Below, one piece after another: positions 42,219-60,804 of a DNA stretch of 64,000 nt (positions are counted from its first letter, which is position 1; the number at the start of each line of letters is the position of its first letter). A program made the position numbers and the translations under genes. The DNA is from Desulforamulus ruminis DSM 2154. Its GTDB lineage: Bacteria > Bacillota > Desulfotomaculia > Desulfotomaculales > Desulfotomaculaceae. The stretch is taken from NCBI RefSeq assembly GCF_000215085.1, contig NC_015589.1, positions 806,001 through 870,000 on the forward strand, written 5' to 3'. Under the pieces are notes generated by a model, which ran no database searches, was not told where the DNA came from, and was given only the letters and a program-made list of their open reading frames with translations.

Positions 42219-44069
42219 TTAATCCACTTTAATAGAAACATGATATTCATTTAACCAGTGATTTAATTGATACAGGTAAGCAAACAACTGGGGGCCGGTC
42301 ATTAACTGGCCAAACCAGGGTCTGGCAAAGTGGTCGCCTTCCCCTTGGAGCATGGATCGGACGGTGCTGATGTCGATTAACTCCAGAAGGGGGGAGGAAG
42401 GATCATCCAGGATGTCCTGCAACAGGGTTTTTACGGCGGATAGATAGGCCGGATTATGGGTTTTGGGATAGGGGCTTTTACGACGTTCCAGAACTTCCTC
42501 CGGAAGAACCCCGGCCAGGGCCAGGCGGAGCAAGCCCTTTTCCCGGTCGTTAAAGCTCTTTATGGACCAGGGAACATTCCACACATATTCCACCAGACGA
42601 TGGTCGCAGAAGGGCACGCGGACTTCCAGACCGGTGGCCATGCTCATCCGGTCCTTGCGGTCCAGTAGGGTTTGCATAAACCAGACGATATTCAGGTAAA
42701 ACATTTCCCGTCTTCTGGCTTCAAGGGGATCTTCGCCGGGCAGGCGCGGCACCTCTTCAATGGTTTCGCGGTAACGGGCCGCCACATATTCCTCTAAAGG
42801 AACTGCCCGGCGCAATTCCGGGGAAAGCAGGTCTGCCCGCTCCCGGGTGGCCTGGGACCAGGGAAAGGTATTAGCGTTTAAGGCATCTTCCTGATGGAAC
42901 CAGGGGTATCCCCCAAAAACTTCGTCGGCACATTCTCCAGATAAGGCGACGGTGGCTCCCTTTTTAATTTCCCGGCAGAACAAATAAAGAGAGGAGTCTA
43001 CATCGGCCATACCCGGCAAGTCCCGGGCCAAAAGAGCCGTTTTTAAAGCTTCCACCAGCATGGGCGTGTCGACGGTAAAATAATGATGCTGTGACCCCAG
43101 GAAATCGGACATGACTTTTACCCAGGGAGCGTCCGCATTGGGCTGGAAAGCACTGGCTTTAAAGTACCGGTCGTTATCCACATAATCAATGGAATAGGTG
43201 TGCAGGGAACCCATACGGTTCTTTTTATAAGCTAAGCTGGCAAAGGTGGACAGGGCGCTGGAGTCCAAGCCGCCGGACAGCAGCGTGCAGACAGGGACGT
43301 CCGCCACCAACTGCCTGGATATGGAGTCTTCCAGAAGTTCTCTCACCCGGTGAACGGTTGTGTGAAGATCATCCCGGTGAGGTTCGCTGACCAGGTTCCA
43401 GTAACGGCTGATATGAACACCCTGATCATTGTATAGTAGGCGGTAGCCAGGGCGCAATTCCTGAACATCTTTAAAAACTCCCTGGCCGGGAGTGCGGGCC
43501 GGTCCCAGGCCGAATATCTCCGCCAAACCTTCTTCATTTACCTCCGGTTTCACCAGGGGATGAGCCAGCAGCGCTTTTAACTCGCTGCCAAAAATGAAGG
43601 CGCTGCCTCTGCGGGCGAAGAAGAGGGGTTTAACACCCATGCGATCCCGGGCCATAAACAAGCTTTGGGCGGACTCACTCCAGATGCCAAAGGCAAAAAT
43701 GCCGTTAAAGCGTTCCACGCATTGACCGCCCCATTCAATATAAGAGGCCAGGAGAACCTCGGTATCCGAGTGGCCCCGGAAGCGATGTCCCCGCACTTCC
43801 AGTTCCCGGCGCAGTTCCGGGGTATTGTATAATTCGCCGTTATAAACAATCACGTAGGTACAGTCGCCCTGTTGGCGAATCATGGGTTGGGCGCCCCCTT
43901 CCGGGTCCACTACGCTTAGACGACGGTGGCCCAGGGCAGCCCGGGAAGAATACCAATAGCCCTCGGCATCCGGACCCCGGTTGGTGAGCGTGGCAGTCAT
44001 TTGCTCCAGAATGATTCGAGCTCCGGACAGATCAATTTCTCGGTCAATCCAACCCGTTATTCCACACAT
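42219..44069 (-). CDS. asnB: Asparagine synthetase, glutamine-hydrolysing
   Basis: 616 residues, ATG after AAGGGAGG. Cys2 of MCGITGW is the Ntn-type glutaminase nucleophile; NGELYN and the SDTEVLL segment line the glutamine site. The C-terminal synthetase domain has the PP-loop LLSGGLDSSALS near residue 265 and a conserved SGECADEVFGGYPW. It makes asparagine from aspartate, ATP and glutamine. Its leader carries an ANTAR-type hairpin that overlaps a terminator. It is divergent from the ANTAR regulator gene. Confidence 0.95.
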   Translation of the reverse strand: MCGITGWIDREIDLSGARIILEQMTATLTNRGPDAEGYWYSSRAALGHRRLSVVDPEGGAQPMIRQQGDCTYVIVYNGELYNTPELRRELEVRGHRFRGHSDTEVLLASYIEWGGQCVERFNGIFAFGIWSESAQSLFMARDRMGVKPLFFARRGSAFIFGSELKALLAHPLVKPEVNEEGLAEIFGLGPARTPGQGVFKDVQELRPGYRLLYNDQGVHISRYWNLVSEPHRDDLHTTVHRVRELLEDSISRQLVADVPVCTLLSGGLDSSALSTFASLAYKKNRMGSLHTYSIDYVDNDRYFKASAFQPNADAPWVKVMSDFLGSQHHYFTVDTPMLVEALKTALLARDLPGMADVDSSLYLFCREIKKGATVALSGECADEVFGGYPWFHQEDALNANTFPWSQATRERADLLSPELRRAVPLEEYVAARYRETIEEVPRLPGEDPLEARRREMFYLNIVWFMQTLLDRKDRMSMATGLEVRVPFCDHRLVEYVWNVPWSIKSFNDREKGLLRLALAGVLPEEVLERRKSPYPKTHNPAYLSAVKTLLQDILDDPSSPLLELIDISTVRSMLQGEGDHFARPWFGQLMTGPQLFAYLYQLNHWLNEYHVSIKVD

Positions 44070-44106
44070 ATGCTTTCATCCTCCCTTTTAAATAGGATAA
44101 ATAATC

Positions 44107-44181
44107 AAAACAAAAGCCACCATGGTAAAGGGGGATGCCTTAACCACGTGGCGCCGTTGCCAGTTGGCAGGATTTGTTCCG
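44107..44181 (-). promoter_or_regulatory. asnB leader: ANTAR-type hairpin overlapping terminator
   Basis: Minus strand: TGGC - AACGGC - GCCA (44149-44162) is a short stem with a hexaloop having A1 and G4. Its 3' arm GCCA also begins a terminator stem (GCCAC ... GTGGC, 10 bp with a bulge) followed by TTTTGTTTT. An upstream hairpin around GGAACAAATCC is non-canonical as the first ANTAR hairpin. Confidence 0.65.
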
Positions 44182-44192
44182 CTTTCTTTATT

Positions 44193-44222
44193 ATTTTATG
44201 TGGGCAGAATTTAAAATGTCAG
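44193..44222 (-). promoter_or_regulatory. asnB promoter
   Basis: Minus strand CTGACA (44217-44222), 18-base spacer, TAAAAT (44193-44198). Transcription would begin a few bases before the leader hairpins. Confidence 0.55.
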
Positions 44223-44357
44223 TGCTGGGTACAGGCAATTTATGGTTTCCAATCAATGCGGGCTGAAAGCCGGCAGGATACCGGAAGTAAAGAGCCTGCG
44301 GTATGGCCGGTTAGATCGAAGAATATTGTATACTTGGCCGGAGGGAGAAAAAACCTA

Positions 44358-44387
44358 TTGACTGGGGATTGACCTCTGCAATATAAT
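44358..44387 (+). promoter_or_regulatory. Promoter of ANTAR regulator gene
   Basis: TTGACT (44358-44363), 18-base spacer, TATAAT (44382-44387). The predicted start lies about 20 bases ahead of the first leader hairpin. Confidence 0.7.
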
Positions 44388-44414
44388 ACACACATATAAT
44401 AGCTGAATATCAAT

Positions 44415-44485
44415 GGATACAATGTTGTATCCTATCAAGGCAACGATGCTCAGGCAGGTAGAGGTTTACCTGTCTGGGTTTTTTT
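44415..44485 (+). promoter_or_regulatory. ANTAR tandem-hairpin leader with terminator, own-gene control
   Basis: Hairpin 1: GGATAC, loop AATGTT, GTATCC. Hairpin 2: GGC, loop AACGAT, GCT, a weak stem. Both hexaloops have A1 and G4, as the ANTAR RNA target requires. The 3' side of hairpin 2 overlaps a 12-bp terminator stem (44449-44460 with 44467-44478) followed by seven T. Confidence 0.8.
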
Positions 44486-44504
44486 GTTGTTACGGAGGGA
44501 TACT

Positions 44505-45080
44505 GTGGCCAACCAACGAATTATCATCGTAGACTCAGATGAAACATGGCGTAAGAGTTTAAAGACCATGTTGGGCAAGCTGGGTTACCTGGTAGTTGGC
44601 GATGCTTCCGATGGCCCTACTGCATTAATGTTGGTGCGAACACGTAACCCGGACTTGTTAATCATTCAGGACAATTTGCCTGGCGTTAATGGTTTAGAAG
44701 TGGCCCGCATTTTATACGAGGACAAACTGGCACCGGTGATACTCAGCACAGACTATATGCAGCAGGAATTGGTTGAAAAAGCCAAGGAAGCCCGGGTTTT
44801 CGCGGTTTTGGTAAAGCCCATCGAGGAGCAGGCGCTATTCCCTGCGGTGGAACTGGCACTGGGAAACTATCAGGAAATCATTCGGCTGGAAAAGCAAGTG
44901 GAGGAACTGAAGGACACTTTGGAGACCCGCAAGCTGGTTGAAAAAGCCAAGGGAATCTTAATGAAGACCATGAACATTAATGAAGAAGAGGCGTTTAAGC
45001 GCATTCAGAAGCAAAGTATGAACAAGCGCATCTCCATGCGGGCGGTAGCAGAGGCTTTGATTCTGGCCCACCAAATATAA
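44505..45080 (+). CDS. ANTAR-domain RNA-binding antiterminator with degenerate receiver
   Basis: 191 residues from the GTG at 44505 after ACGGAGGG; an upstream TTG at 44484 falls within the terminator T tract. Residues ~5-118 form a receiver fold, but the phospho-acceptor Asp position reads Gln (PDLLIIQDNLPG, Q55) while Lys104 and the S/T81-82 position are kept. A coiled coil (~122-140) leads to an ANTAR domain (~140-190, KLVEKAKGILMKTMNINEEEAFKRIQ-type). ANTAR proteins bind paired hexaloop hairpins and prevent termination. The leader of this gene and of both downstream glnA genes carry such hairpins, so it most likely controls nitrogen assimilation and itself. Confidence 0.92.
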   Translation: MANQRIIIVDSDETWRKSLKTMLGKLGYLVVGDASDGPTALMLVRTRNPDLLIIQDNLPGVNGLEVARILYEDKLAPVILSTDYMQQELVEKAKEARVFAVLVKPIEEQALFPAVELALGNYQEIIRLEKQVEELKDTLETRKLVEKAKGILMKTMNINEEEAFKRIQKQSMNKRISMRAVAEALILAHQI

Positions 45081-45102
45081 CGTGCTATAAAAATGGAATA
45101 TT

Positions 45103-45173
45103 GGGGTAAGCAATACCCTTGGGCAATGGCGCCTTTTATAAGGGAGTAAATTCCTTTAATAAAAGGTGTTTTT
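45103..45173 (+). promoter_or_regulatory. glnA1 leader: ANTAR-type hairpin overlapping terminator
   Basis: Hairpin 2 is GGC, loop AATGGC, GCC (45122-45133) with A1 and G4. Its 3' arm starts a terminator CGCCTTTTAT (45130-45139) pairing with ATAAAAGGTG (45159-45168) and followed by TTTTT. The upstream hairpin GGGGTA/TACCCT has a 5-base loop AGCAA and is not canonical. Confidence 0.75.
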
Positions 45174-45321
45174 ATGTTCTATGGTCAAAAGGAAAATTTT
45201 CCGGTAGCAAAAGAGGTAACAAGGATTTTGGCCGCTTAGATCGTAGGGGTGACTGAATTCAAGCTTTCTTTAACATTAAGTTATTTTAAACCAAAATATA
45301 TTATAAGAAAGGTGGCTCATT

Positions 45322-46656
45322 ATGGACACGGCGTTAAAAAAAGAAGTAATGGAAAAAGCCAGGGAGATGGGAGTTAAGTTTATCCGCCTGCAGTTTACCG
45401 ATATTTTTGGATCTTTGAAAAACGTGGCCATTACGGTAGAACAGTTGGAAAAGGCTTTGGATGGAGAGTTAATGTTTGACGGTTCATCCATTCACGGCTT
45501 TACTAGAATTGAAGAGTCCGATATGTACCTGCGTCCGGACCCAAGCACCTTTGTGGTATTTCCCTGGAGACCCCGTGAAGGCGCTGTTGCCCGTTTAATT
45601 TGTGATGTTTATAATCCTGACGGAACACCCTTTGAAGGCGACCCCCGTTACGCTCTGAAGAAAGTTCTGGCGGAAGCCAAAGAAATGGGTTACACCATGA
45701 ATGTAGGACCTGAGTGTGAGTTTTTCCTGTTCCAGTTGGATAAAGATGGTAAACCCACCACAGAGACCCATGACGAGGCCGGATATTTTGATATGACACC
45801 GGTTGACATGGGTGAAAATGCACGGCGTTTTATGGTGCTCACTCTGGAAGAAATGGGCTTTGAAATAGAGGCTTCCCACCACGAAGTGGCTCCGGGTCAG
45901 CATGAAATTGATTTTAAGTATTCCGATGCTTTGGATGTGGCGGATAAAATCATGACCTTTAAGTTTGTGGTACGCACCATTGCCCAACGACATGGTCTTC
46001 ATGCCACCTTTATGCCCAAACCCATTTTTGGTATCAATGGTTCCGGAATGCATATGAACCAGTCCCTGTTTACTCTGGATGGTGAAAATGCCTTTTATGA
46101 TCCCGCCACGCCCGATCAATTGAGTGAAATCGCCAAACATTATATTGCCGGGTTGATTAAAAACGCCCGCTCCTTTGCGGCTTTGACCAACTCCACGGTG
46201 AATTCTTACAAACGCCTGGTTCCCGGATATGAAGCCCCCTGCTATGTAGCCTGGTCTTTACGCAACCGCAGCTCCCTGATCCGCATTCCTGCCAAGCGGG
46301 GGATGTCCACCCGCGTTGAATTGCGCAACCCGGACCCGGCCTGCAATCCCTACCTGGCCATTGCCGCAGCCTTGAAGGCCGGTTTGGATGGAATTAAAAA
46401 TAAGCTTACACCTCCGGCTCCTTCCGAGCGGAACATTTATCACATGGATGCCGAGGAAAGGGCGGCAGAAGGGATTGTCAGCCTTCCCGCCAGCATCCAG
46501 GAAGCGGTTTCGGAGCTGCAGGCCAACCCGGTTATTGCTTCGGTACTGGGACCTCACATTTTAGAAAAGTTTGTTGAGGGTAAAAATGAAGAGTGGGATG
46601 AATTCAGAACCACTGTCCATGACTGGGAAGTTAAAAAATATCTTACTCTTTACTAA
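45322..46656 (+). CDS. glnA: Glutamine synthetase, type I-alpha (first copy)
   Basis: 444 residues, ATG after AGAAAGGTGG. Full GSI sequence: [39 protein letters not shown], the ATP-site segment [23 protein letters not shown], and the Glu-flap and Arg region [17 protein letters not shown]. It ligates ammonia to glutamate with ATP. Length fits the non-adenylylated alpha type. Differences from its paralogue at 46949 include His for Glu in SSIHGF and NRSSL for NRSPL. It has its own ANTAR-type leader and a terminator downstream. Confidence 0.96.
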
Positions 46657-46686
46657 ATCCTTCGATTTATAGAAGTTTATTTTATG

Positions 46687-46729
46687 AAAAAGGCAGGCTT
46701 TGCCCCGGAGGGGTATGGTCTGCCTTTTT
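46687..46729 (+). terminator. glnA1 terminator
   Basis: AAAAAGGCAG pairs with CTGCCTTTTT around an inner GCCCC/GGGGT stem. Confidence 0.85.
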
Positions 46730-46816
46730 ATGCTTTTCTTAAAAGTATACAAAATTCATGTCGATAAGGTATGGATTTTTGCACTTTTATTGGCTATACT
46801 AAACAAGAAAATGAAT

Positions 46817-46899
46817 GGCACAATGGCGTGCCGGAAAATTAGGCAATGGCGCCTGCGACTGGAGTACATTTTTTGTGCTGCCTGTTGTAGGCTTTTTTT
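46817..46899 (+). promoter_or_regulatory. glnA2 leader: canonical ANTAR tandem hairpins and terminator
   Basis: Hairpin 1: GGCAC, loop AATGGC, GTGCC (46817-46832). Hairpin 2: AGGC, loop AATGGC, GCCT (46841-46854). Both loops are identical with A1 and G4. GCCTGCGAC (46851-46859) re-pairs with GTTGTAGGC (46884-46892) followed by seven T, so hairpin 2 and the terminator are mutually exclusive. Confidence 0.88.
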
Positions 46900-46948
46900 A
46901 GCTTTATGATATAATACTTGATAAAAGTAAAGCGAAAGGTGTGTTATT

Positions 46949-48283
46949 GTGACCAAGCTGACTAACGACGATGTTAGACAAATGTGCAAAGATTTAAATG
47001 TTAAATTTATCCGCCTCCAGTTTACAGACATCTTTGGAGTACTCAAGAATGTGGCCATTACCGTTGAGCAACTGGATAAAGCCCTTGATGGAGAGATGAT
47101 GTTTGACGGATCCTCCATTGAAGGATTTGTAAGAATTGAAGAATCCGATATGTACCTCCGTCCGGATCCCAGCACCTTTGTGGTATTTCCCTGGAAGCCC
47201 CGGGAAGGTGGGGTAGCTCGTTTAATTTGTGACATTTATAATCCCGATGGCACTCCTTTCTTTGGGGATCCACGGTATGCTTTAAAAAGAGCCCTGGCCG
47301 AGGCCGAACAGATGGGTTATGTCATGAATGTGGGCCCCGAAGCGGAGTTCTTTCTGTTCCATGTGGATAATGAAGGCCGTCCCACTACCAAAACCCACGA
47401 CAAGGCCGGTTACTTTGATATGACGCCCATCGACCTGGGTGAAAACGCCCGTAGGGATATGGTCCTGACCCTTGAGCAAATGGGCTTTGAAATAGAGGCT
47501 TCTCATCATGAAGTGGCCCCGGGCCAGCATGAAATTGATTTCAAATATGCCGACGCCCTGGATATGGCCGATAAAATTATGACTTTTAAATTGGTGGTAC
47601 GCACCATCGCCCAGCGGCATGGGTTGCACGCCACTTTTATGCCAAAGCCGGTATTCGGCATTAACGGTTCCGGGATGCATGTTAACCAGTCCCTGATTAC
47701 CCTTGACGGTAAAAACGCTTTTTATGATCCCGATGCACCTATGGGTTTGAGCAAGGTTTGCATGAATTATATTGCGGGTTTAATGAACCATGCTGACGCC
47801 ATTACAGCCATTGCCAACCCCACCGTAAATTCTTACAAGCGTCTGGTAGCCGGTTATGAAGCTCCGGTTTACGTGGCCTGGTCCGGCCGGAACCGCAGCC
47901 CGTTGATCCGTATCCCGGCCAAGCGGGGGATGTCCACCCGGGTTGAACTGCGCAGTCCGGATCCCTCCTGCAATCCCTACCTGGCGCTGGCAGCTTGTCT
48001 GCATGCAGGATTGGACGGCATTAAAAAAGGAATGACTCCCCCGCCGGCCACCGATAGAAACATCTATGAAATGACTTTGGCCGAGCGCCAGGAACTGGGC
48101 ATTAGCAATCTTCCGGAAAACCTATCGGAAGCCCTGAAAGTACTGGCTGCAGATAATGTCATTAAAGAAGCCCTTGGGCCACACATTTTTGAACGGTTCA
48201 TAGAGGCCAAGAGTATTGAGTGGGACCGGTACCGTATGCAGGTTAGCTCCTGGGAATTGGACGAGTACCTTGAAAAGTTTTAA
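46949..48283 (+). CDS. glnA: Glutamine synthetase, type I-alpha (second copy)
   Basis: 444 residues. It starts at GTG after GCGAAAGGTG and is collinear with the first copy, clearly a tandem duplicate with strong identity. It keeps the canonical [24 protein letters not shown] and [13 protein letters not shown] segments, so it looks the more conventional of the two enzymes. Two adjacent copies, each with its own ANTAR leader, suggest differential regulation of ammonia assimilation. It is followed by a terminator and then gltB. Confidence 0.96.
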
Positions 48284-48323
48284 TCTTCCCCTCCATAGAT
48301 AAGATAGAAGCAGTAAAGGTTTT

Positions 48324-48372
48324 TGCCCGGGCAAGCGTACTTAAAAGGGTATTGCCTTATCCGGGCATTTTT
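48324..48372 (+). terminator. glnA2 terminator
   Basis: TGCCCGG pairs with CCGGGCA, with an inner GCAA/TTGC pair, followed by TTTTTA. Confidence 0.8.
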
Positions 48373-48600
48373 ATCCCCTTTTCATTTAGGCAGAAAATTC
48401 TAACTATTTAGTTGTTTAATACTTTGGAGAAGGCAGGTATCGTGAAATGACAGCCACTGGCCCGCCTCAACAAAACTCAAAAAATGTTTAAACAAAAGGA
48501 TTTAATTTGATGAGCGGGATTTTGTGGTGGATGGATTTAATAACCGCCAACAACTCGATTCCCGGCGTTAAAATATTTAGCAATAGGAGGTAATAACGCC

Positions 48601-51600
48601 ATGACTGGTATGTCTCCCGGAAGTCTTAATGGATTACCCCTAAAACAAGGCTTGTACAACCCGCGATTCGAGCACGATGCCTGTGGTATTGGGTTTGTAG
48701 CCAACATAAAAGGGGAAAAATCAAACGAAATTTTGCGCCAGGCTCTGACCATTCTAATGAACCTCGACCATCGCGGAGGTCAGGGCGCCGAGGTTAATAC
48801 CGGCGATGGGGCAGGAATTCTTATCCAGATTCCCCATGGTTTCTTTGTCAAAGAGTGTGAGAAATTAAATATGGATCTGCCTCCTGCGGGCCGGTACGGC
48901 GTGGGTATGCTGTTCCTGCCCAGGGATCCGGAGCAGCGTGAAGGCTGCCGGCGCATACTGGAACAGGTTATCGAGGAAGAGGGGCAAACCTTACTGGGCT
49001 GGAGGGAAGTCCCGGTAAACGACTCGATGCTCGGCGAAGCGGCCAAGCTGGCCCAGCCGTCCATTTTCCAAGTTTTTATTGGAGCAGCCCCGGAAGTAAA
49101 GGACAGCCTGACTTTTGAACGCAAGCTTTACGTTATTCGAAAACGCACCCGGAAAGAGGTCCGTCGTTCCCTTTTAGAAGAGGGAGAAACTTTTTACTTT
49201 GCCAGTTTGTCTTCCCGGACCATTGTATATAAGGGAATGCTCACACCTGAGCAGTTAGATCAGTTTTATCTTGATTTGCAACAGCCGGATGTGGAAATTG
49301 CTCTGGCCCTGGTACACTCACGCTTTAGCACCAATACCTTTCCCAGTTGGGAAAGGGCTCACCCTTACCGCTATTTAATTCACAACGGCGAAATTAACAC
49401 ACTGCGCGGGAATGTTAACTGGATGCACGCCCGTCAGGCCATGTGCCAGTCGGAGCTGTTCGGGGATGATTTTAAAAAGATCCTGCCGGTGCTTGACCAG
49501 GAAGGCAGTGATTCTTTAATCTTCGACAATTGTATGGAGTTTCTTTTCCTTTCCGGCCGGTCTTTGCCCCATGCTGCAATGATGATGATTCCTGAGCCTT
49601 GGTATTATCATGAAGGCATGAGCGACGAAAAGAAAGCTTTTTACGAGTATCATAGCTGTCTGATGGAGCCCTGGGATGGTCCTGCCGCCATTGCTTTTAC
49701 CGACGGCAAAATGATCGGCGCAGTACTGGACCGCAACGGTTTAAGGCCTTCCCGTTATTATGTAACTAAGGATGACATGATTATTCTGGCTTCCGAAGTG
49801 GGTGTGCTGGATATCGATCCGGCCAACATCGCCTATAAAGAACGTCTCCGGCCGGGCAGAATGCTGCTGGTGGATACGGAAGAAGGCAGGATTGTTACGG
49901 ATGAAGAGTTAAAGCAGCGGATTGCTTGTGAACATCCTTACCGCCAGTGGATTAACGATTATATGATGAACCTGGAGGATCTTCCGGGGACTGCGGAAGT
50001 TCCGGAAGGGGCGGCTGAAAACAGCCTCCAGCGACAGCAGGCCTTTGGCTATACCCATGAAGACTTGCTCAAAACTCTGGAGCCCATGGCCAAAAACGGC
50101 GTTGACCCGGTAGGAGCCATGGGAAATGACGCCTCTCTGGCCGTGCTGTCGGAAAAGCCTCAGCTATTATATACCTACTTTAAGCAATTGTTTGCCCAGG
50201 TTACCAATCCTCCCATTGATGCCATCCGGGAGGAAATCATAACGGCTACCGGCACCACCATCGGTTCTGAAAAGAATTTGATTCAGCCGGAGCCGGACAG
50301 TTGCCGCAGAATCAGGCTGAAAACACCCATTCTGAGCAACCAAGATTTGGCCAAACTGCGTGGTATCCGGAAAGAGGGTTTCCGGGCTGTCACCCTGCCC
50401 ATTTTGTACCCGGCGGCCGATGGCAGTCAGGGGCTGGAAAAGGCATTGGCTGCACTCTTTCAAGCAGCGGACTTGGCTATTGCCGAGGGTGCCAACCTGC
50501 TGATTTTATCCGATAGAGGGGTGAACCCGGAAAAGGCCCCTATTCCCGCCCTCCTTGCGGTATCCGGTCTGCATCACCATTTGATTCGGGAAGGGACCCG
50601 TACCAAAGTCAGTTTGCTGCTGGAATCCGGAGAACCACGGGAAGTGCACCATTTTGCCGTTTTACTGGGCTACGGCGCCAGCGCCATTAATCCTTATCTG
50701 GCCATTGAAACCCTGGACGATATGATTCAGCGGGGATACATTTGCCAACTAAGCCCCGAAGAGGCCGCCAAGAACTACATCAAGGCTGCCACCAAGGGGG
50801 TCGTCAAGGTCATGTCCAAAATGGGCATTTCTACTATTCAAAGTTACTGCGGAGCACAGATTTTTGAAGCGATTGGCATTCACCAGTCGGTGATTGACCA
50901 ATACTTTACCTGGACCCCTTCCCGCATTGGCGGTATTGGCTTGGATGCCATCGCCCGGGAAGTGGAACTTCGCCACCGGCGGGCTTATGAGGAAGGTGCA
51001 GATCCTACCCTTGATTCAGGATCCGCCTACCAGTGGCGCCATAACGGGGAAGAACACATGTATAATCCCCAAAGCATTTACTACTTACAACAGGCCTGCC
51101 GCAACGGTGATTATGACTCCTTTAAAAAATATTCCAGCCTGCTGGATAAAGAGGCTAAAACAAGTTCTACCATACGGGGGCTGTTTTCCTTTAAATCAAA
51201 CCAGCCGCCGGTACCCATTGAGGAAGTGGAGTCCGTAGAGGCTATCTGCCGCCGTTTTAAAACCGGCGCCATGTCTTACGGTTCCATCAGCAAAGAGGCC
51301 CATGAATGCCTGGCCATTGCCATGAACCGGATCGGTGGTAAAAGCAACACCGGGGAAGGGGGAGAAGATCCCGCCCGTTTTATTCCTGATGCCAACGGCG
51401 ATTTAAGGCGCAGTGCCATTAAACAGGTGGCATCCGGCCGATTCGGCGTTACCAGCCATTATTTAGTTAATGCGGATGAAATCCAAATTAAGATGGCCCA
51501 GGGGGCAAAACCCGGCGAAGGGGGGCAACTGCCCGGCGGTAAAGTATATCCCTGGGTTGCCGAGGTGCGGGGAACCACGGCCGGTGTCGGTTTGATTTCC

Positions 51601-60641: not shown

Positions 60642-60652
60642 TGGAACCTTTT

Positions 60653-60804
60653 CCCTCCTTTGGCCTTCGAGGTTAGCTGTCGGGTTCGGGTTGAAGGGCA
60701 CCCTACCGCACCTGTAGACACCTCCGTAAAAAGGCAGCGGATTCACCCCGTAAAATTTGTCCCCCGTACTCCGGTTTTCGCGGAGATTCGGCCTCTTTTG
60801 TAAA
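60653..60804 (-). ncRNA. Cyclic di-AMP riboswitch (ydaO/yuaA)
   Basis: On the minus strand the leader contains CGGGGGAC, GGGGTGAATCC, then AGGGTGCCCTTCAACCCGAA and CCGACAGCTAACCTCG, in the order and spacing of the ydaO class. It lies directly ahead of the LysM/SleB hydrolase gene. Binding of c-di-AMP normally turns such genes off. Confidence 0.88.

Follow-up and report, generated by a model that had tools for sequence, protein, structure and literature searches.

The leader of glnA2 and the question it raises

The genome of Desulforamulus ruminis DSM 2154 (3,969,014 bases, one contig) carries two adjacent genes for type I glutamine synthetase, and the leader of the second, glnA2, contains hairpins that raise the question of whether transcription is stopped before the gene, and by what protein it is let through. 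The original prediction saw there a textbook antitermination switch of the ANTAR type. In what follows, the window denotes the whole 64,000-nucleotide stretch of DNA analysed, and coordinates refer to it unless stated otherwise. The order of the cluster is asnB (minus strand), a REC-ANTAR gene, glnA1, glnA2, and then gltB and gltD; the last two names are our own reading of the sequence and come from no family search. The principal genes are the following.

44484–45080, plus strand: REC-ANTAR regulator gene (ORF as listed; Pfam ANTAR and Response_reg)
45322–46656, plus strand: glnA1, type I glutamine synthetase
46949–48283, plus strand: glnA2, type I glutamine synthetase, GTG start

The start of the REC-ANTAR gene is more likely GTG 44505, which is preceded by GGAGGG. 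The sole Rfam match at the gathering score within the window is a c-di-AMP riboswitch (RF00379, 85.5 bits) at 60648–60803 on the minus strand.

Architecture and folding of the leader

The elements identified between glnA1 and glnA2, with the evidence for each in brackets, are listed here.

46795–46800, plus strand: putative −10 element TATACT of a promoter 5' of the attenuator (sequence)
46817–46832, plus strand: hairpin P1, GGCAC-AATGGC-GTGCC, 5 pairs (sequence, folding, covariance model)
46833–46840, plus strand: P1–P2 linker, 8 nt
46841–46854, plus strand: antiterminator hairpin P2, AGGC-AATGGC-GCCT, 4 pairs (sequence, folding, covariance model)
46851–46892, plus strand: intrinsic terminator hairpin (sequence, folding)
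46893–46899, plus strand: U tract of the terminator, T7 (sequence)
46907–46915, plus strand: extended −10 motif TGATATAAT of a putative attenuator-independent promoter (sequence, congeners)

The two tandem hairpins, of 5 bp and 4 bp, exceed the minimum of 3 bp for ANTAR-target RNAs, and both carry the A1/G4 hexaloop, with AATGGC read directly in each, as predicted. The predicted spacing of 8 bases is that of the linker, which lies inside both published ranges, 5–12 nt in the account of eut leaders in PMC3369931 and 2–25 nt in PMC8164766. In the terminator, the 5' arm GCCTGCGAC (46851–46859) is paired with the 3' arm GTTGTAGGC (46884–46892), and the tetranucleotide GCCT at 46851–46854 serves both as the 3' arm of P2 and as the foot of the terminator. 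P2 and the terminator thus compete for this segment and cannot coexist, and the mutually exclusive pairing described in the original prediction is borne out.

Folded alone, the terminator reaches −25.5 kcal/mol compared to −12.9 kcal/mol in shuffled sequences (z −5.3), and the P1 and P2 pair reaches −14.7 kcal/mol (z −0.8), a stability that is ordinary for its composition. In silico, the complete leader folds into P1 and the terminator. When the growing transcript is followed in the same way, P1 and P2 are found at lengths of 50 to 85, and from 90 the full terminator replaces P2. Imposing P1 and P2 on the finished leader costs only 2.8 kcal/mol, and antitermination may therefore be leaky.

Genome scans and controls for chance

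A scanner looking for two A1/G4 hexaloop hairpins, the second overlapped by a terminator, found three sites in the window, which correspond to the glnA2 leader, the leader of the ANTAR gene itself, and a weaker site at 42361. Under a strict rule (P1 of at least 5 bp, P2 of at least 4 bp, terminator at or below −20 kcal/mol), 150 dinucleotide-shuffled versions of the window, scanned on both strands, contained no site. Under a loose rule the same number of shuffles yielded 31 sites (0.21 each) versus 3 in the real window, and by this control the loose-rule site at 42361, which lies inside the asnB region, was judged to be probably a chance occurrence.

Applied to both strands of 36 loci (32 found via the ANTAR protein and four from the D. 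ruminis genome), the scanner gave 55 matches, every one of them in the same orientation as the ANTAR gene. Of these, 53 lay outside the D. ruminis genome and 41 passed a filter that left out matches inside genes or with no recognised downstream gene; after removal of one overlapping duplicate, 40 were aligned. The covariance model built from these 40 rows includes the D. aquiferis ortholog (L026) and none from D. ruminis. Covariation in this alignment leans towards structure, since the scanner had chosen its rows for pairing and for A1/G4 loops.

Searched against the 3.97-Mb genome, the model places the glnA2 leader first genome-wide, with 40.2 bits and an E-value of 6.3e-6 (E-values of this model being rough), followed by the ANTAR gene leader with 36.5 bits. 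The third and fourth matches are at genome positions 2644328 (34.5 bits) and 3510539 (27.9 bits), and the fifth, the leader of glnA1, is at the noise level of the genome (17.6 bits, E 1). Matches with E at or below 0.05 are present in 37 of 41 genomes, comprising D. ruminis and 40 relatives.

Conservation in Desulforamulus

For a further comparison, leaders of glnA2 orthologs were picked by protein and not by motif; eight of nine genomes were used, and the ninth (G007), whose gene is interrupted by stops, was left out. P1, P2, and the terminator are present in all eight leaders, as is TATACT or TATAAT at the putative upstream −10 position. The antiterminator pairs are formed in 70/70 assessable cells; the outer pair of P1 is G-C in D. 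ruminis, A-U in six leaders, and U-A in one. Shifting the pairing partner breaks both the antiterminator and the terminator structures. The covariation score of the antiterminator was equalled by 17 of 500 shuffles of the eight orthologs, which is suggestive and not strong, and that of the terminator by 95 of 500.

The loops are more variable. A1/G4 is found in P1 of four of the eight leaders and in P2 of six (the remaining two begin with G1), and in both loops together in only two. Pairing and overlap are thus kept more strictly than the letters of the loops, and a strict A1/G4 rule cannot be upheld as a requirement, since orthologous glnA2 leaders break it. The same applies to the identity of the two loops, which we do not retain as a special feature; P1 and P2 loops differ in relatives, so identity is not required.

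A 15-base element shared upstream of the glnA2 promoter, AGTATACA-WAATTC, is not claimed as an operator because it is barely commoner in the genome than its reversed control (72 versus 61 occurrences with at most two mismatches).

A probable promoter behind the terminator

Between the terminator and the start codon, at −42 to −50, the motif TGNYATANT is found in all eight congeneric glnA2 leaders, with an expectation of 0.008 per 50 nt over all loci examined; as the species are related, this count amounts to fewer than eight independent observations. In a more distant set, the motif follows none of the attenuators of ANTAR genes (0/14), gltB (0/11), or glnA1 (0/8), and it is present in three of eight leaders labelled glnA2, in two of the three further from the terminator. 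The extended −10 is probably a promoter giving a basal, unattenuated glnA2 transcript, and its conservation after the terminator suggests that glnA2 depends on the switch only in part.

The REC-ANTAR regulator and its paralogs

The protein encoded at 44484–45080, two genes upstream of glnA2, matches Pfam ANTAR (1.4e-21) and Response_reg (8.6e-20), and NCBIfam returned for it just generic receiver matches, far below the cut-offs. With phmmer it is matched along its length by Rv1626 (1s8n, 1e-38) and by the chain of 6wsh/6ww6 (1.3e-32), which we take to be EutV. Its closest ANTAR orthologs are those of Desulforamulus putei (81%) and D. aquiferis (80%). The receiver retains the conserved Lys and Thr; its residue 54 is Gln, and the residue aligned to it in the chain of 6wsh/6ww6 is Asp. 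Among 29 orthologs of at least 50% identity, the D. ruminis copy counted, this position is occupied by Asp in 12, Glu in 12, Gln in two, His in two, and Ala in one, so that Asp is absent from the acceptor position in 17 of these 29 close orthologs.

In the EutVW type, a phospho-accepting Asp is accompanied by an adjacent histidine kinase. Here Gln54 stands at the acceptor position, and no histidine kinase was found among the five neighbouring proteins scanned; an unlinked kinase could still serve the regulator. Two-component control of this protein appears unlikely from its sequence, and since Gln54 replaces the Asp of the EutV type, a partner protein or a ligand rather than a kinase probably switches it.

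Four ANTAR genes are present in the genome, one of them within the glnA cluster, and which ANTAR protein binds the leader is therefore judged from position. The gene at genome position 2443088 keeps the Asp and adjoins a PdtaS-like histidine kinase (HisKA_2/GAF_PdtaS). That at 799280 also keeps it and precedes a PII-like gene (glnK) and an ammonium transporter gene (amtB), whereas that at 451230 carries Glu in place of the acceptor Asp and precedes a third gene resembling glutamine synthetase. In 31 of the 32 loci found via the window's ANTAR protein, the ANTAR gene is followed immediately by glnA; the remaining locus, L030, is cut off by the end of its contig.

The third glutamine synthetase-like gene (GlnA3; 451.5–452.9 kb of the genome, L052:2010-3401) is thus paired with its own ANTAR gene, 451230. 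None of 17 sequences of the GlnA3 class has Glu at the aligned flap position, and the His of NGSGMH is absent in the eight Desulforamulus copies. We do not class GlnA3 as a dead enzyme, however, since in nine of these 17 sequences the residue just before that flap position is Glu.

Other leaders with related elements

The glnA2 switch is one of several. By the covariance model, such elements also precede the ANTAR gene, nifH, and a chemoreceptor gene, and, more weakly, glnA1 and others. The elements in the two leaders nearest to glnA2 are as follows.

44415–44432, plus strand: P1 of the ANTAR gene leader, GGATAC-AATGTT-GTATCC (scanner, covariance model 36.5 bits)
44439–44450, plus strand: P2 of the ANTAR gene leader, GGC-AACGAT-GCT (scanner, covariance model)
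44448–44479, plus strand: terminator of the ANTAR gene leader, overlapping P2 (scans)
45103–45119, plus strand: P1-like hairpin of the glnA1 leader, pentaloop AGCAA, off consensus (model 17.6 bits, folding)
45121–45134, plus strand: P2 of the glnA1 leader, GGGC-AATGGC-GCCT
45130–45168, plus strand: terminator of the glnA1 leader, overlapping P2 and followed by TTTTT (folding)

The ANTAR gene leader has a match in eight of nine congeners, with A1/G4 in both loops in all eight. In the glnA1 leaders of Desulforamulus, P2 (mostly AATGGC) and the terminator are kept, and P1 has drifted to a pentaloop, to G1 loops, or to no clear hairpin. These leaders may be half-site attenuators that respond differently to the ANTAR protein.

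Within the D. ruminis genome, model matches precede nifH, with a pair of PII-like genes and, judging by sequence, additional nitrogenase-type genes downstream of it, and a chemoreceptor gene; in relatives they precede nifH, amtB, and glnA, and in three congeners a chemoreceptor gene as well. The nifH leader (L051:6870-7240, minus strand) seemingly contains two tandem attenuators. The P1 of the first is GGATAC-ATTGAT-GTATCC, and the P2 loops, GAAGGC and GTTGAG, begin with G. In the case of the chemoreceptor, a protein with MCPsignal and a Cache-like C-terminal domain, the attenuator is directly 5' of the gene (G000:C1:2644328-2644367, minus strand; L050:7829-7868). Homologs of 52–54% identity carry an attenuator in three congeners (L084, L087, L088), near the glnA cluster, an arrangement that suggests nitrogen control of the chemoreceptor.

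The leader of asnB (44170–44110, minus strand) has a P2-like hairpin, GGC-AACGGC-GCC, that overlaps a terminator, with P1 degenerate or absent. The scanner found this hairpin in seven of eight congeneric asnB leaders and missed the D. ruminis copy, which was read by eye. Degenerate ANTAR-like elements with terminators also lie at L053:1990-2600, before PII-like and ammonium transporter genes and downstream of another ANTAR gene.

Comparison with known ANTAR systems

Regulons of this kind were predicted by Ramesh et al. 2012 in Desulfotomaculum reducens and D. acetoxidans, the latter with 13 attenuators in six units, and, in the passages concerned, ANTAR RNAs are placed upstream of genes for PII, ammonium transporters, nitrogenase subunits, and glutamate/glutamine synthase enzymes, with P2-overlapping terminators found only in genomes that have ANTAR genes (PMC3369931). 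These regulons resemble that of D. ruminis in bacterial group, in the dual hairpins, in the overlap of P2 with the terminator, and in the association with glutamate synthase and other nitrogen genes. In turn, ANTAR proteins, NitR among them, are linked to ammonia assimilation in clostridia in the part of PMC4676874 that deals with them, and the NitR-type proteins are found beside glnA and glutamate synthase genes, as here. The glnA2 switch consequently belongs to a kind already known. The same passages of Ramesh et al. do not treat a lost phospho-site, a second promoter, or a chemoreceptor target, and what appears new is modest, namely the precise location, a neighbouring regulator that has lost its phospho-site, a promoter that probably bypasses the attenuator, and looser rules for the loops.

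The eut leaders of Enterococcus faecalis, as outlined in PMC3369931, likewise combine a REC-ANTAR protein with a dual A1/G4 hexaloop antiterminator; the receiver of EutV is phospho-accepting, unlike the D. ruminis regulator with its Gln54 and no histidine kinase adjacent. A partner protein, not phosphorylation, gates the ANTAR output in AmiR–AmiC of P. aeruginosa and in NasT–NasS, according to the portions of PMC3369931 and PMC3795266, respectively, that describe them. However, no AmiC- or NasS-like gene adjoins the D. ruminis regulator, whose neighbour is a glutamine synthetase.

Proposed mechanism and alternatives

The glnA2 leader very probably attenuates transcription under the control of an ANTAR protein. 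RNA polymerase would start about 10 nt before P1. According to folding in silico, without the ANTAR protein P1 and the terminator would form and transcription would halt before glnA2. By analogy with the eut system, an active ANTAR dimer on the two hexaloops would hold P2 and keep its 3' arm from the terminator, and the polymerase would then enter glnA2. The best candidate for the regulator is the REC-ANTAR protein of 44484–45080; as the leader of its own gene has the same attenuator, it probably exerts positive feedback on itself. Given Gln54, a partner protein or a ligand would control it, and not a kinase, and the promoter after the terminator would supply basal glnA2 transcript.

On the model of AmiR and AmiC, we infer a regulator that a partner restrains or sets free, and not the output of a phosphorelay. 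We put forward tentatively, as a possibility that we hold to be less likely than its opposite, that the glutamine synthetase encoded beside the regulator is the direct sensor gating the non-phosphorylatable receiver, at the level of RNA, with GlnA3 as a pure regulator. A precedent for signalling from glutamine synthetase to a regulator is the binding of the glutamine-inhibited enzyme to the repressor GlnR, as summarized in PMC9249791. A literature search for ANTAR proteins with glutamine synthetase as a partner found no paper, most subscription journals being outside its reach.

Among the alternatives, the switch could be real and its regulator another ANTAR protein of the genome, such as that of 2443088 or 799280, or several could share targets. 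With four ANTAR domains encoded, one of them keeping its Asp beside a HisKA_2/GAF_PdtaS kinase, this has some plausibility, yet we regard it as unlikely, as the window's ANTAR gene is close by, has a leader whose element ranks second in the genome, and is followed directly by glnA at all but one of the loci of its orthologs. It is very improbable that the terminator simply serves the upstream gene in the ordinary way, with the two AATGGC hairpins present by chance or as a remnant of decay. Intergenic terminators are common (a scan of the region gave 10 terminator-like sites versus 5.6 in shuffles), but glnA1 already has a terminator-like hairpin of its own at about 46690–46729, and the dual hairpin ranks first in the genome with an independently built model and recurs in every congeneric glnA2 leader examined. 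Glutamine riboswitches precede glutamine synthetase genes of other bacteria, which lends a metabolite riboswitch, for instance a glutamine aptamer, upstream of glnA2 a certain appeal; it is nonetheless the least credible reading, as no Rfam family reaches the gathering score at the leader and all matches of a permissive Rfam scan of 44000–48700 are far under their thresholds.

Control of the leader by an ANTAR protein, as originally predicted, is thus supported by the geometry, by the ANTAR gene two genes upstream, by the rank of the covariance match, and by conservation in congeners. The epithet "textbook" has to be qualified in view of the Gln in place of the receiver Asp, the extended −10 after the terminator, and the presence of A1/G4 in both loops in only two leaders out of eight. 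The glnA2 switch is a well-supported addition to a known class, with the regulator, its self-control, and its targets in one cluster. If true, the reading with a protein partner would join glutamine synthetase, as a nitrogen sensor, with ANTAR antitermination, and would explain a kinase-free route by which nitrogen status reaches glnA and the nitrogenase genes in these sulphate-reducing Firmicutes.
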